From Fibrobacterota bacterium (GTDB lineage: Bacteria > Fibrobacterota > Chitinivibrionia > Chitinivibrionales > FEN-1185), in the NCBI GenBank assembly GCA_003165595.1, contig PLWQ01000001.1, forward strand, positions 1 to 7,589: a stretch of DNA of 7,589 nt, read 5' to 3'. The notes under the pieces were generated by a model that did not search any database, was not told the origin of the DNA, and was given only the letters and a program-made list of their open reading frames with translations. Shown here one piece after another: positions 2,865 through 7,589 of the stretch. The position numbers were made by a program, and so were the translations under genes. The first letter of the stretch is position 1. Each line of letters starts with the position of its first letter.

Positions 2865-2898
2865 GCACTTCGATAAACTCAGTGCAGGTGCTCAGCAC
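2865..2898. repeat. CTTCGATAAACTCAG-type repeat with two small hairpins
   Basis: GCACT (2865-2869) pairs with AGTGC (2881-2885), and GTGC-TCA-GCAC forms a second hairpin at 2888-2898. The stretch CTTCGATAAACTCAG closely resembles a short dispersed motif (CTTCGACAAGCTCAG) that I recall from many bacterial genomes. It closes the stem-loop cluster. Confidence 0.5.
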
Positions 2899-2901
2899 AG
2901 G

Positions 2902-2984
2902 CCTTTGCGGTGATTCTTTTCCTACCAATGACCCAATCTGTTCTGTTTTTGCTGTCAGCCTTCAACTCTTCTTTGTATCTCTGC
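2902..2984. repeat. Copy A of the 121-bp repeat, 5'-truncated
   Basis: This segment aligns base for base with 4615-4697, with few mismatches. It includes the shared core ACCAATGACCCAATCTG at 2924-2940. The first 28 bases of the unit are missing. The similarity may extend to 2990 with a one-base deletion, but there it merges with the dyad repeat. It sits upstream of the ATPase gene, and the other two copies follow the XRE gene. Open frames through it are judged spurious. Confidence 0.85.
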
Positions 2985-3046
2985 AATCTTACAAGACTGT
3001 TGTAAATTTGCAATGCAATCTTACAAGACTGTTGTAAATTTGCATT
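2983..3046. promoter_or_regulatory. Two tandem 32-bp dyads, probable operator
   Basis: Units 2983-3014 and 3015-3046 differ at one base (position 31 of the unit). Each contains a palindrome of the form GCAA-N2-TTACAA-N5-TTGTAA-N2-TTGC, at 2983-3011 and 3015-3043, with all ten base pairs perfect. The centres (2997 and 3029) are 32 bp apart, close to three helical turns, so two dimers would sit on the same face. They lie just upstream of the -35 box, at about -83 and -51 from the predicted start site. That position suits an activator or an upstream-bound repressor. The binder is unknown; the XRE protein encoded at 4301-4582 is a candidate. Confidence 0.7.
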
Positions 3047-3079: not shown

Positions 3080-4261
3080 ATGAGTGCCAAACACTACCCC
3101 CGCCTCCTTTCCGTCCCCGACCGCTCGTTTTTTCTTTTCGGACCGCGCGGAGTGGGGAAAAGCACATGGCTGCGCGATGCATTGCCGCAGGCACAGGTTT
3201 TCGACCTGCTGGAATATTCATTGCACCTGGAGCTGGAACAGGATCATGGTAGGCTTGAGGCAATGGCCGGCGACCGGCCGGAGGGGTCATGGATCGTTTT
3301 GGATGAAATCCAGAAAATACCCGCCCTTCTGGACGAGATTCACCGGCTTATTGAAAAGCGGAAATGGCGCTTTGCATTGTGCGGGTCGTCCGCAAGAAAA
3401 CTCCGCAGAAGCGGGACAAACCTTCTCGGAGGCCGGGCATTGACAAGGGAAATGGAATCGTTTTCCCAGCACGAGCTCGGCAGAGATTTCAATGCCGGTT
3501 TTTCCCTTGAATGGGGCCTTCTGCCCATGGTGCAGGGCGACCAAAAAAACGCTGCGGATATTCTCAACTCCTATGTAAACACCTATATCAAGGAAGAAAT
3601 CAAGGAGGAAGGCATTGTTTGAAGCCTCCCCCCTTTCCTGCGGTTTCTGAATATTGCCGGTCTGCTGAACGCCCAAATCGTCAACGCGCAGAACATTGCC
3701 AGGGAAGCAAGCGTTCCCCGCAGCAATGTCGATGTTTATTTCTCAATCCTGCAAGATACTTTGCTTGGGCATTTTCTGCCTTCCTACAGGCCGCAGGCGA
3801 AAGTCCGGGAGCAGACACATCCGAAATTCTACTGGTTCGATTCAGGGGTCGCCCGCGCGGCAGCCGGACTTTTATATGAGCCTGTGGACAGGGTGTGGAA
3901 AGGCCTCTCACTCGAAACACAGATCTTCCATGAATTACGGGTTCATAATCAAAGCAAAAATCTGAATCGTGGGATATATTATTATCGTACCGCATCGGGC
4001 GTTGAAATCGATTTCATCATAGAAACAAAAAAACGCCAGCAATCATCGCTGCCGCATGTTATCTGCCTTGAAGTCAAACTTTCGGAAAAATGGGACAGAG
4101 GCTGGGAAAGGCCCATGCGAAGCCTTGCGGAAGAAAAAAAGGTGAAGATTGAAAGAATGATAGGGATATATTCCGGCAGCCGGTCATACCATTTCGAGGA
4201 TTGCGATGTTCTTCCAATAGAATCCTTTTTAAACCAGCTGCATTCAGGACAGATATTTTAA
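3080..4261 (+). pseudogene. AAA ATPase with DUF4143 C-terminal domain, interrupted by an in-frame TGA
   Basis: One frame of 393 codons encodes an ATPase of the AAA_14/DUF4143 family, usual length about 380-400. Walker A is GPRGVGKST (21-29) and Walker B is IVLDEIQ (72-78). A sensor-like CGSSARKL lies at 101-108, followed by GRALTREME. The DUF4143 part contains a winged-helix-like stretch (NIAREASVPRSNVDVYFSILQDTLLG) and a PD-(D/E)XK-like region with GVEIDF (307-312) and LEVK (330-333). TGA at 3620-3622 (codon 181) splits the gene without a frameshift: KEEGIV, stop, SLPPFLRFLN. In this family that position usually reads as V-R-N/S-L-P, so CGA to TGA is the simplest explanation. Alternatives are a sequencing error, readthrough, or two separately made halves; the only early starts for the second half are weak non-ATG codons. 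The cellular role of the family is poorly known. Confidence 0.85.
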
Positions 4262-4300: not shown

Positions 4301-4582
4301 ATGAAAACTCTTAAATCTCACCTCAAAGAATCTCTGAAGGACCGGGATTTTCGGAAATATTTCGATGAAGAAAAAGAGCTTATTCAAGTATCTCTTCAGC
4401 TTCATAAAGCCCGGGAAAATGCGGGACTGAGCCAAAAGGAAATAGCCGAAACGGCTCATATAACCCAGCAGCAGGTTTCCAAAGTTGAAAACGCAACAAA
4501 CTGCAACATCCTGACATATCTCAAGGTCAGCCACGCCATCGGAATGAAATTTGGAGTAAGCCGTCAGAGAAAAGTTGCCTGA
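4301..4582 (+). CDS. XRE-family helix-turn-helix protein, HigA-like orphan antitoxin
   Basis: The 93-residue protein has an N-terminal segment typical of HigA-type antitoxins (SLKDRDFRKYFDEEKELIQV, 11-30), followed by an XRE helix-turn-helix. The first helix is about SQKEIAET (44-51) and the recognition helix is QQQVSKVEN (56-64). Such proteins bind operators as dimers and often neutralise a RelE/HigB toxin. No toxin gene is found on either side. The 39-base gap to the ATPase gene and shared strand suggest co-transcription with it. A GAGGA at 4279-4283 is rather far (17 bases) from the ATG, so initiation may be weak. It could regulate the dyads at 2983-3043; that link is inference. Confidence 0.8.
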   Translation: MKTLKSHLKESLKDRDFRKYFDEEKELIQVSLQLHKARENAGLSQKEIAETAHITQQQVSKVENATNCNILTYLKVSHAIGMKFGVSRQRKVA

Positions 4583-4586
4583 TTTT

Positions 4587-4707
4587 TTCTTTGCGCTTCT
4601 TTGCGGTTTTTGCGCCTTTGCGGTGAATCTTTTCTTACCAATGACCCAATCTGTTCTGTTTTTGCTGTCAGCCTTCAACTTTCCTTTGTTTCTCCGCGAA
4701 TCTTCTC
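4587..4707. repeat. Copy B of the 121-bp tandem repeat
   Basis: This complete unit starts five bases after the XRE stop codon. It opens with CTTTGCG micro-repeats, continues with the core ACCAATGACCCAATCTG and ends in CCGCGAATCTTCTC. It is directly followed by copy C; the two differ at about seven of 121 positions by my alignment. CTTTGCG-type intergenic repeats are known from many unrelated genomes. Confidence 0.85.
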
Positions 4708-4828
4708 TTCTTTGCGCTTCTTTGCGTCTTTTGCGTCTTTGCGGTGATTCTTTTCCTACCAATGACCCAATCTGTTCTGTTTTTGCCGTCAGCCTTCAAC
4801 TCTCCTTTGTTTCTCCGCGAATCTTCTC
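4708..4828. repeat. Copy C of the 121-bp tandem repeat
   Basis: This is the second tandem unit, exactly in phase with copy B (period 121). It is slightly closer to the truncated copy A at 2902-2984 in the GGTGATTCTTTTCCTACC stretch. CACAGG follows immediately at 4829-4834, and the same hexamer immediately precedes copy A at 2896-2901. Confidence 0.85.
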
Positions 4829-5024
4829 CACAGGATATAAAACTTGCTTTTGGCATAAGGAATACCTAGTTTTTGGAGAGTTGCGGTATACGACTGCCAG
4901 AACGAGGATAGGATGATAGGGGGTATTGCGGTGTCCTTCAGACGGCATATTGAATATCCCGTTTAGCATTATATTGGATATACTGCCTGCATAAATATTT
5001 TTATGTCGCTTGATGTCTAATACC
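4829..5024. other. AT-rich intergenic stretch with weak dyads, no gene seen
   Basis: No convincing gene is present on either strand. An imperfect dyad pairs GGCA and ATATCC (4944-4947, 4954-4959) with GGATAT and TGCC (4976-4981, 4984-4987). A small hairpin CATAAA-TATT-TTTATG lies at 4990-5005. A TATACT at 4979-4984 lacks a -35 box at proper spacing. The stretch separates the repeat-flanked ATPase/XRE module from the inverted-repeat unit. Confidence 0.5.
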
Positions 5025-5042
5025 TGTTCTTTTGCAAGGCGA
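5025..5042 (+). repeat. Left 18-bp inverted repeat
   Basis: TGTTCTTTTGCAAGGCGA is the exact reverse complement of 7459-7476. The match continues outward with one mismatch and then two more matching bases. A perfect 18-bp match is unlikely by chance in a window of this size. Confidence 0.8.
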
Positions 5043-5045
5043 GAA

Positions 5046-5064
5046 ATCGCCCATCCTGGGCGAT
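5046..5064. repeat. Perfect stem-loop just inside the left inverted repeat
   Basis: ATCGCCCA (5046-5053) pairs with TGGGCGAT (5057-5064) around a TCC loop. It lies three bases inside the left inverted repeat and mirrors the hairpin near the right end. Confidence 0.75.
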
Positions 5065-5077
5065 GGATTAATGCAAA

Positions 5078-5275
5078 ATGAAAAGAGAATAATGCAAAGG
5101 CAAATTAAGACGGCACTCTGGCAGGCGTAAATGGCAGGCATTGTGCAGGGAAATACGATTTAGCAAAAATGAATTTGAACGATTAAAATTGATAGCCGCC
5201 GCCGAAGAATTAAAAGTATACTACAAACATGGCGCACATCAGAATAGCTGCTATCATTATTTGATTATTCCTTAA
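5078..5275 (+). pseudogene. Possible remnant of a small charged protein, interrupted by TAA
   Basis: One frame runs from ATG 5078 to TAA 5273-5275 with a single early stop (TAA 5090-5092) after MKRE. The remainder reads as a plausible protein: a basic stretch (KLRRHSGRRKW), then FSKNEFERLKLIAAAEELKV, then a tail ending CYHYLIIP. The middle loosely recalls ribbon-helix-helix or MobC-like sequences, but this is too weak to name a family. The frame ends 29 bases before the next gene. It may equally be chance open sequence, or start downstream of the stop at a non-ATG codon. The rest of 5043-5304 shows no clear promoter. Confidence 0.3.
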
Positions 5276-5304
5276 TGCCGAGGTTTTTACTAGAAAGGAA
5301 TCTT

Positions 5305-5784
5305 ATGGGTAAACTTACAACTGCACAAATTACTGAGTACTTTCAGATTCACCTGCCCTATCGCAACCAAGTTCTTCTTGCTCACAAAAAGATTTCCACA
5401 CCGGGACCTTATACTGGTGATCAAACGATCCTTAGGGCTTGTTTTGAAGCATCTCTTATCACTGGAAGAATGTACCTGAATGTTCTTGGTATTTCAAAGG
5501 ACAAGCACGATAATTTAGTTAAAAAGCAATTTCAAACCGACGATGTAAGCGCCGAAGATTTAGGCGGTAGCCTTGTCGACGTAGCTAAAATTCCCAAAGC
5601 CGATAACGATCTTTTTGTCGGTTTTCTCAAAATGGTTGACAAAGGGGCAGCTCATCTTACCCTTCCTATGAAGCATCCGTGGGAAAGTACGCACGACGCA
5701 ATCGACCTCATTGTCGCCTACTTGAAAGAATATGTATATAAACCAACAGGAAATACTTTCACAGAACAGCAGACTAGTCTATGA
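5305..5784 (+). CDS. Hypothetical protein of 159 residues, family not recognised
   Basis: The protein is soluble, without signal peptide or transmembrane segment, and probably mostly helical. Notable stretches are EYFQIHLPYRNQVLLAHKK (11-29), TILRACFEASLITGRMYLNVLGI, and a C-terminal half with DLFVGFLKMVDKGAAHLTLPMKHPW followed by a helix DAIDLIVAYLKEYVYKP. I do not recognise the family. The HLPYR opening vaguely recalls hypothetical proteins carried in integron cassettes, from memory only. The start at 5305 is chosen over ATG 5275 because GAAAGGAA (5293-5300) gives a well-spaced ribosome binding site, five bases before the ATG. The gene overlaps a tiny frame by ATGA and precedes the ankyrin gene by 45 bases, so the two are probably co-transcribed. 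Confidence 0.8.
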   Translation: MGKLTTAQITEYFQIHLPYRNQVLLAHKKISTPGPYTGDQTILRACFEASLITGRMYLNVLGISKDKHDNLVKKQFQTDDVSAEDLGGSLVDVAKIPKADNDLFVGFLKMVDKGAAHLTLPMKHPWESTHDAIDLIVAYLKEYVYKPTGNTFTEQQTSL

Positions 5785-5819
5785 AAATAGATTCCTATTT
5801 TACACAAGAAGTCTTTTAA
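5781..5819 (+). CDS. Possible 12-residue leader or coupling peptide
   Basis: ATG at 5781 overlaps the preceding stop as ATGA and reads MKIDSYFTQEVF before TAA 5817-5819. The next start codon is 10 bases further on, and the AAGG serving that gene overlaps this stop. It could couple translation of the two genes. It may also be chance; there is no other support. Confidence 0.2.
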   Translation: MKIDSYFTQEVF

Positions 5820-5829
5820 GGTTTCCCAT

Positions 5830-7305
5830 ATGTTTCGATTGTTTCTCATTTTATTAATGACAATTGTACCACTTTATTCCCAACAGCATACTTCCGCCAT
5901 TGTTGCTGTAAGTGATCTTGTCGGGCAGGGTATCGCTCAAAGCGAAGTAAAAACCGTGTCTGAACAACTTCGAGCTGAAATCCTCAAGACCGGCTATTTC
6001 CGCATTATGGAGAGAACCCAAATGCAGGAAATCCTCAAGGAGCAAGGTTTCCAGCAAACCGGATGTACTGCCGATTCTTGCGCAATTGAAGTTGGCCAAT
6101 TGTTAGGCGTAAATAACATTATTGTCGGTTCGCTAGGAACTGCGGGTAGCTATACAGCCATCACACTAAGGATTCTTGATGTTCAGACCGGAGAAGTCAC
6201 TATTACTGAAACGGTGAATTCTAAAGGTGGTATAGACAATATGATTGAGAGCGGGATTCACCAAGCGGCCGTAAAACTAATCTCTGGTTTCTTGAAAACA
6301 ATAAGTGCCGCTATTATTGAAGCCGCGAAAACTGGAAATATCAAAGAAGTTGAGAGGCTTTTACAGCGCGGCGCGGATGTGAACTCAAGTGACACCGTTG
6401 GCGACACTCCCCTCCGTGAAGCCGCTGGAAATGGTTACACGAAATTAGTGGATTTTCTTTTAAGCAAAGGTGCAAATGTGAACGCACCTGATAGCTCTGG
6501 CTGGACACCCTTTAATCATGCAGTCTATAAATGTCATAAAGACATTGTTAAGGAATTAATAGAGAAAGGAGCCTGGGTGTCTATGAAGGATTGGTTCGGG
6601 AATACAGCTCTTTCATGGGCAGCTGAAGGCTGTGATACTGGAATGGTACGGCTTCTTTTAAAAGCTGGAGCTGAGGTAAACGCTGAGAACCATATAGGCG
6701 ATACTCCTCTTAATAAAGCAATTAACTATGGCGGTAGCTTCGATGTAATAAAGCTTTTGTTATCAAAAGGCGCAGACATGAATTCTTTAGATTTTCAGGG
6801 AAATACTCCTTTGCATAGTGCCGTCATGAGAGAGCGCGAAGATGTAGTGAAACTCTTGTTGGCGAAAGGCACTGTTCTAAATAAAACAGATTATCTTGGA
6901 ATGACGCCTTTGGACCTCGCATACGGAAATCCCCATAGAGGAATTGAAAAGATTCTGCAAAAGGCAGGAGCGAAAGAAGGAACGTTCTGGGAAAAGCAAC
7001 TTGGCCTTCTGTTTAGCGAAGTAGGACAACTACAGTGCGATTCTATTACTTGTGGCATTCTTAAAACACAATGGCCTGTGGCACGCATCAATGAAATCGT
7101 AACAAAGAACCCCGAAAAAGCAAATTTCTTGGTGCCCGATGGGGATTATGATAAGTTTTCCCATATTGAGGAAATAATCCGCATATATTGCCCTGTTGAT
7201 TCTCAGGGTAACGTTGACGTTTCTAGAAGGAGATTGCAAGATATAAATTCTGCTTTTTTTGAATGGAAAACCAAAACCGGCGCGATATGCCCATCCATGC
7301 GCTAG
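5830..7305 (+). CDS. Secreted CsgG-like domain fused to ankyrin repeats
   Basis: The 491-residue protein opens with a signal peptide (hydrophobic 4-14, likely cleavage after S17, no lipobox Cys), so it should be periplasmic or exported. Residues 22-155 match the CsgG/LpoB-like pattern: IVAVSDLVGQGI, then RAEILKTGYFRIMERTQMQEIL, then a Cys pair in GCTADSCAIEVGQLLGV (C79, C84). The pattern ends with LDVQTGEV. Residues 158-382 hold about seven ankyrin repeats (GDTPLREAAGNG, LLSKGANVN, GNTPLHSAV, GMTPLDLA). The C-terminal 110 residues are unrecognised and carry four Cys (403, 408, 454, 487). AAGG (5818-5821) lies eight bases before the ATG. The family role is outer-membrane or cell-envelope associated; ankyrin repeats bind proteins. 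The target here is unknown. A+T-rich codons contrast with the phosphatase gene. Confidence 0.88.
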   Translation: MFRLFLILLMTIVPLYSQQHTSAIVAVSDLVGQGIAQSEVKTVSEQLRAEILKTGYFRIMERTQMQEILKEQGFQQTGCTADSCAIEVGQLLGVNNIIVGSLGTAGSYTAITLRILDVQTGEVTITETVNSKGGIDNMIESGIHQAAVKLISGFLKTISAAIIEAAKTGNIKEVERLLQRGADVNSSDTVGDTPLREAAGNGYTKLVDFLLSKGANVNAPDSSGWTPFNHAVYKCHKDIVKELIEKGAWVSMKDWFGNTALSWAAEGCDTGMVRLLLKAGAEVNAENHIGDTPLNKAINYGGSFDVIKLLLSKGADMNSLDFQGNTPLHSAVMREREDVVKLLLAKGTVLNKTDYLGMTPLDLAYGNPHRGIEKILQKAGAKEGTFWEKQLGLLFSEVGQLQCDSITCGILKTQWPVARINEIVTKNPEKANFLVPDGDYDKFSHIEEIIRIYCPVDSQGNVDVSRRRLQDINSAFFEWKTKTGAICPSMR

Positions 7306-7320
7306 AGACAATTGTGCGCC

Positions 7321-7395
7321 ATGAAAACCGAGAAATATAAAGACAAAAGCGGCGGCGGCGGCGAAGACAAATTCAATACTGAACCAGTAAACTAA
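7321..7395 (+). CDS. Possible 24-residue charged peptide with four glycines in a row
   Basis: ATG 7321 to TAA 7393-7395 reads MKTEKYKDK, then SGGGG, then EDKFNTEPVN. It starts 15 bases after the ankyrin gene on the same strand. No good ribosome binding site is visible. The GGC run could be a simple repeat rather than coding sequence, so this is listed only as a possibility. Confidence 0.2.
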   Translation: MKTEKYKDKSGGGGEDKFNTEPVN

Positions 7396-7425
7396 ATAGA
7401 ATTATTCAAGACCAAACCAAAGACA

Positions 7426-7456
7426 AGCAGCGTCGCGCTTCCTGCACGCCGCTGCT
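7426..7456. repeat. Stem-loop just inside the right inverted repeat
   Basis: AGCAGCG (7426-7432) pairs with CGCTGCT (7450-7456), extended by two more pairs after one mismatch. It ends two bases before the right inverted repeat, mirroring the arrangement at the left end. It could also weaken read-through transcription, but no T-run follows. Confidence 0.65.
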
Positions 7457-7458
7457 AA

Positions 7459-7476
7459 TCGCCTTGCAAAAGAACA
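7459..7476 (-). repeat. Right 18-bp inverted repeat
   Basis: TCGCCTTGCAAAAGAACA is the exact reverse complement of 5025-5042. It lies between the hairpin at 7426-7456 and the long stem-loop at 7493-7551. Confidence 0.8.
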
Positions 7477-7478
7477 AG

Positions 7479-7577
7479 TCGCTAAATCATGACCGGGCGC
7501 GGTTGGCTTGAGGAAAAATACAATCAGATCAAGCCAACCTATTGCGCCCGGCATATTAGCTTCACCGTTAGGAGCGA
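7479..7577. repeat. Long bulged stem-loop with GTTAGGA box, attC-like
   Basis: CCGGGCGC (7493-7500) and GGTTGGCTTGA (7501-7511) pair with TCAAGCCAACC (7529-7539) and GCGCCCGG (7544-7551). The TATT at 7540-7543 is left as a bulge on one arm, and the loop is 17 bases. TCGCT (7479-7483) can pair with AGCGA (7573-7577). GTTAGGA (7567-7573) resembles the attC core GTTRRRY except for the last base, and a start codon follows within 12 bases. The partner box expected on the left (RYYYAAC) is not clear: CGCTAAA lacks the final AAC. Large imperfect stems with unpaired bases are typical of attC but also of other repeats. Confidence 0.4.
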
Positions 7578-7584
7578 AATAAAA

Positions 7585-7589
7585 ATGAC
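7585..7589 (+). CDS. Probable start of the next gene, cut by the window edge
   Basis: ATG at 7585-7587 follows AGGAG (7570-7574) with a 10-base gap, a reasonable ribosome binding site and start. Only the first codon and two bases are visible, so nothing can be said of the product. The ribosome site overlaps the GTTAGGA box, as often happens where a cassette gene follows a recombination site. Confidence 0.35.

Follow-up and report, generated by a model that had tools for sequence, protein, structure and literature searches.

Two genes in a genome assigned to the phylum Fibrobacterota are enclosed by an 18-bp sequence (5025-5042) and its exact reverse complement (7459-7476), which raises the question of what kind of unit the repeat delimits. 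The stretch of DNA analysed here, called the window throughout, is 7,589 nucleotides long and constitutes the entire contig C40 of a 5.39-Mb genome (98% complete, 42 contigs). An earlier note on this DNA proposed a non-autonomous cargo element with transposon-like ends, mobilised in trans. Comparison with the remainder of the genome leads to another kind of unit: the two genes very probably occupy the first gene cassette of a chromosomal integron in which the integrase gene, intI, has been reduced to a stump (Table 1). That the unit is a gene cassette is near certain.

Table 1. Features in and around the cassette, numbered by position in the window.
Feature	Position	Strand	Remarks
intI stump	4816..4941	-	about 42 N-terminal codons, rest missing
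attI	4940..5026	+	crossover G5026/T5027; homology to the C39 attI
5' arm	5026..5042	+	first bases of the cassette; acts as R' box in the circle and extends over 17 bp; complements 7459-7475 exactly
Integron gene cassette	5027..7567	+	2541 bp, two genes; bounded by attI and its own attC
Hairpin A	5046..5064	+	8-bp stem, TCC loop; folds
Hairpin C	5113..5146	+	consensus fold
Gene 1	5305..5784	+	159 aa, orphan
Gene 2	5830..7305	+	491 aa; CsgG/LpoB-like domain and ankyrin repeats (Pfam)
Hairpin B	7426..7456	+	folds
3' arm	7459..7475	+	R'' box AAAGAAC (7469-7475) with outward extension to 17 bp
attC	7469..7573	+	from R'' to the R' box of the following cassette
Next cassette, start	7568..7589	+	ATG at 7585

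The inverted repeat

The repeat described in the earlier note is real. At 18 bp it surpasses every other exact inverted repeat of the window and everything found in 60 dinucleotide shuffles (maximum 16, mean 12.4), and 20 of 21 positions match when it is extended outward. A search of the whole genome for the 18-mer, one of the checks proposed in that note, found exact copies at the two ends of the unit only. Matches with one to three mismatches were about as frequent as those to a reversed-pattern control, and a one-mismatch copy on contig C33, with no partner repeat nearby, was set aside as chance. The inner hairpins A and B were confirmed, and a third, hairpin C, which had previously been missed, was found between hairpin A and gene 1. 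Likewise, no recombinase is encoded within the unit, and the lack of a target duplication, also remarked upon before, is as in an integron gene cassette.

An integron gene cassette at attI

Several stretches of the window were found again on contig C39, where they stand in integron order. Positions 4828-4940 resemble the start of the C39 intI, 4940-5028 resemble the stretch ahead of a row of small genes on that contig, and 5026-5089 together with 7425-7501 resemble both ends of a short gene-free unit inside the row. C39 carries an integron with IntI, attI and attC cassettes, and its IntI scores 446.6 bits against TIGR02249, for which the cut-off is 265. A second intact IntI above this cut-off, with its own attI and attC, is encoded on contig C9. 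Intact recombinases are thus present on two contigs other than that of the unit.

The intI stump of the window is 65% identical to the C39 IntI over 43 amino acids (tblastn, E 8e-12) and its DNA is 80% identical to the start of the C39 gene; a Pfam search of its translation, which is too short for this purpose, matched nothing. An intact intI beside attI is lacking at the window locus, which is therefore not a complete integron. The window attI and that ahead of the C39 array are 87% identical over 4940-5028. The four attI sites in this genome share their sequence as far as CTGTT and differ beyond it, so the crossover is fixed at G5026|T5027, and the cassette is joined to attI at the G|TT expected of an attI/attC insertion.

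Between the cassettes on C39 lie attC sites that have AAC...GTT edges and a core in common, AATCATGAC...GCATATTA, and the window attC has the same core. It displays the R''-L''-L'-R' plan with AAC and GTT at its edges, and its L arms, as read from the sequence, pair GCTAA(A)T(C)ATG(A)CC with GCTAATATGCC. Three bases, within the two or three expected, remain unpaired (extrahelical), all on a single L arm, and in known attC sites unpaired bases are restricted to one arm (PMC2727003). The site scores 53 bits (E 3e-10) on attC model R1, a score that is not independent since the site is one of the five members of the model. The true borders of the unit are G5026|T5027 and G7567|T7568, so that the mobile unit ends after the attC hairpin, 91 bp beyond the right repeat, and not at 7476 as had been assumed. 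The repeats are the pairing arm, R' and R'', of an attC site, and their TG and CA termini resemble transposon ends by coincidence. T5025 belongs to attI, and A7476 is the attC base next to R'' on its outer side; these two bases pair by chance; the biological arm is accordingly 17 bp, 5026-5042 with 7459-7475, over which the R' and R'' of the cassette are fully complementary.

Several features were counted against this assignment, among them R boxes that depart from the consensus, the broken neighbouring intI and the shortness of the window attC. The R boxes, GTTCTTT and AAAGAAC, agree with the heptamer consensus GTTRRRY/RYYYAAC at GTT and AAC only. From AAC to GTT the site measures 97 nt, and most others in the genome are longer; its G-to-T spacing is shorter than the 6-8 nt that are usual for attC sites in the literature. 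The strictly conserved part of the R boxes is itself limited to GTT/AAC (PMC2727003), so the heptamer consensus alone is not defining.

The cassette was very probably inserted at attI, at G5026|T5027, by an IntI that used the bottom strand of attC in folded form, in keeping with the known recombination of this strand with double-stranded attI (PMC2727003). The two repeats represent the first bases of the cassette (R') and the start of attC (R''), which become neighbours in the excised circle alone, and the IntI of C39 or C9 may have moved the cassette in trans. The notion of cargo mobilised in trans thus survives in the form of an integron gene cassette, while the transposon ends and the right boundary that accompanied it do not.

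Surroundings of the cassette

A 121-bp repeat is present in three copies in the window (2874-2994, 4587-4707 and 4708-4828). The copies flank an AAA_14/DUF4143 ATPase gene (3080-4261) and a small HTH gene downstream of it (4301-4582). The ATPase gene is divided into two reading frames, split near 3620-3760, and represents either a broken gene or an assembly error. The repeat adjoins the broken end of the intI stump, and insertion or recombination at the repeat may therefore have cut intI. On C39 a PIN-domain toxin and a HicB/CopG-like antitoxin are encoded as a pair between intI and attI (L017 12115-12775), a gap that is normally empty.

The 23 bp from G7567 to the end of the window recur at the end of contig C42, directly behind another attI. 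Both contigs stop after these 23 bp, as expected if one cassette occupies two places, and the next cassette apparently sits on both C40 and C42. The attI-like site lies in the last 75 bases of C42, and intI was not found in the 18 kb upstream of it. Lone attC-like sites are scattered on C23, C1, C24, C41, C34, C37, C19 and C29, several of them at contig ends, which indicates that the cassette arrays are larger than assembled. Neither a circle nor an empty site of the window cassette was seen, which also counts against the cassette assignment.

Cargo

Searches of Pfam, NCBIfam, the phylum, GTDB contigs, plasmids and phages gave no relatives of gene 1, and its predicted structure (mean pLDDT 37) is uninformative; a lack of known relatives is common among cassette genes. 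The N-terminus of the gene 2 product is hydrophobic as judged by eye, and the protein is probably exported. Cassettes carrying two genes are known (PMC12444791).

A noncoding frame with and without genes

Apart from a block of about 2.2 kb that holds its genes, the window cassette is colinear with the third cassette on C39, which has no ORF, at an identity of about 68-70%. The search for further units with the same ends, suggested in the earlier note, thus revealed one that carries zero genes. The frame common to the two cassettes consists of the arms and three hairpins. Between the two cassettes, arm positions 4, 14 and 17 are different, in every case through changes on both sides that preserve pairing. 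The chance of three such double compensatory changes is about 5e-5 by a simple count that leaves out the bulge and takes the changes in the second arm to be random. Hairpin A is present in both cassettes but is longer by one whole pair in one of them, hairpin B has kept its outer stem, and hairpin C differs by one double change and three G-U changes.

Could the frame be a structured noncoding RNA, its arm under selection for an RNA stem rather than for recombination, and of which the window version has gained two genes? Its consensus fold lies further below column shuffles on the top strand (z -11) than on the bottom strand (z -7), the gene-free cassette itself folds better as RNA than its shuffles (z -3.4), and the G-U changes in hairpin C, which pair on the top strand only, speak weakly for RNA. 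Cassettes encoding regulatory RNA are also known, as exemplified by sRNA-Xcc1 (PMC6557892, PMC12444791). However, the z-scores of the consensus derive from two sequences only, an Rfam scan of the window gave no match at gathering scores, and with arms 2.4 kb apart the RNA stem in the window would have to enclose two genes. We consider this explanation rather unlikely.

In 167 genomes of the phylum, the body of C39 cassette 3, used as a DNA query, matched only itself and the window, barring three weak matches that on inspection seem to be due to chance similarity of A-rich sequence. The same 167 genomes gave no clear third copy when searched with a covariance model of the 5' frame; the two known copies stood above background and the best other match had an E of 0.0016. 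The DNA pattern of the frame ends was absent from the GTDB and viral contigs searched. An A-rich stretch of about 36 bp in C39 cassette 3 aligns weakly to window positions 5155-5189 and 7383-7424, that is, at both edges of the gene block, as though this were where the genes came in, in sequence that is of low complexity.

The long arm in circle and array

The 17-bp arm of the window cassette contrasts with arms of 9, 10 and 8 bp in the other measured cassettes of the genome. In C39 cassette 3 the arm is also 17, with one bulged base and an uninterrupted run of 8. Cassettes of a sister species in the same genus have arms of 7 to 11 bp, a range from which two spans with uncertain borders, of 3 and 4 bp, are excluded, and the R'/R'' pairing in most known cassettes is 9-11 nt (PMC2727003).

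The length of the arm would matter differently in the two states of a cassette. On excision a cassette closes into a circle, its last G joined to its first TT, and its own R' then faces the R'' at the start of attC. In an array the neighbour is another cassette, so that the arm can pair over 3 bp only, and attC is predicted to fold more weakly. The computed folding energy of the window attC is -46.1 kcal/mol in the circle (17-bp arm) versus -30.8 kcal/mol in the array (3 bp), and the gap between the states, 15 kcal/mol here and 13 in C39 cassette 3, is 3 to 7 kcal/mol in three other cassettes. This difference in pairing would predict easy insertion and poor excision. We therefore put forward, tentatively and as somewhat less than an even prospect, that the long arm gives attC added stability in the circle, which it lacks in the array, and so favours capture over loss. 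The extended proposal that the frame, with its 17-bp R stem and conserved hairpins, is a one-way carrier that occurs both empty and loaded with two genes is doubtful.

Long matched arms may also be kept by copying, through template switching between inverted repeats, without any selection. Quasi-palindrome correction can yield compensated changes in inverted repeats, and would produce changes identical to those seen between the two cassettes. But the arms of the window cassette meet only in the circle and are otherwise separated by 2.4 kb, and hairpin C varies through G-U changes rather than through copying, which makes this origin of the arms improbable.

Discussion

A MITE-like, non-autonomous transposon with 18-bp terminal inverted repeats and a transposase acting in trans would explain a long exact repeat around cargo without an internal recombinase, but is hardly credible here, since attI homology ends at G5026, the unit extends 91 bp past the right repeat to G7567, the right repeat runs directly into attC, further copies of the 18-mer are absent from the genome and no target-site duplication is visible in the sequence; the repeats do not form both borders of the unit. 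A long inverted repeat around cargo can hence be an attC arm, and a search for transposon ends would misread such repeats.

Integron biology has yet to explain how genes gain attC sites and so turn into cassettes. Empty and loaded cassettes built on one noncoding frame in one genome make the question approachable and, should the one-way carrier proposal be true, may offer a glimpse of gene entry into cassettes. The long arm, which pairs only with itself, suggests a simple and testable route to a cassette that is easily captured and hard to lose.

The integron cassette is a known kind of unit; what sets this one apart is an arm that is unusually long and apparently maintained, together with a matched empty relative. 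It shares with the gene cassettes of chromosomal integrons the insertion at attI, the R''-L''-L'-R' plan of attC with unpaired bases on one arm, the GTT crossover, the recombinase-free unit, further cassettes in the array and an IntI in the genome. It differs from usual cassettes in pairing R' and R'' over 17 bp instead of 9-11 (PMC2727003), in R boxes off consensus past GTT/AAC, and in a conserved noncoding frame with three hairpins common to a two-gene and an ORF-less cassette. The gene-free C39 cassette 3, with its conserved fold, recalls ORF-less and regulatory-RNA cassettes such as the promoter cassettes of Treponema and sRNA-Xcc1 of Xanthomonas; unlike these, its frame also surrounds two genes in the window. 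The persistence of cassettes next to a broken intI is likewise familiar from the many Xanthomonas integrons with inactivated intI (PMC12444791), whereas the present genome retains two intact IntI genes elsewhere.
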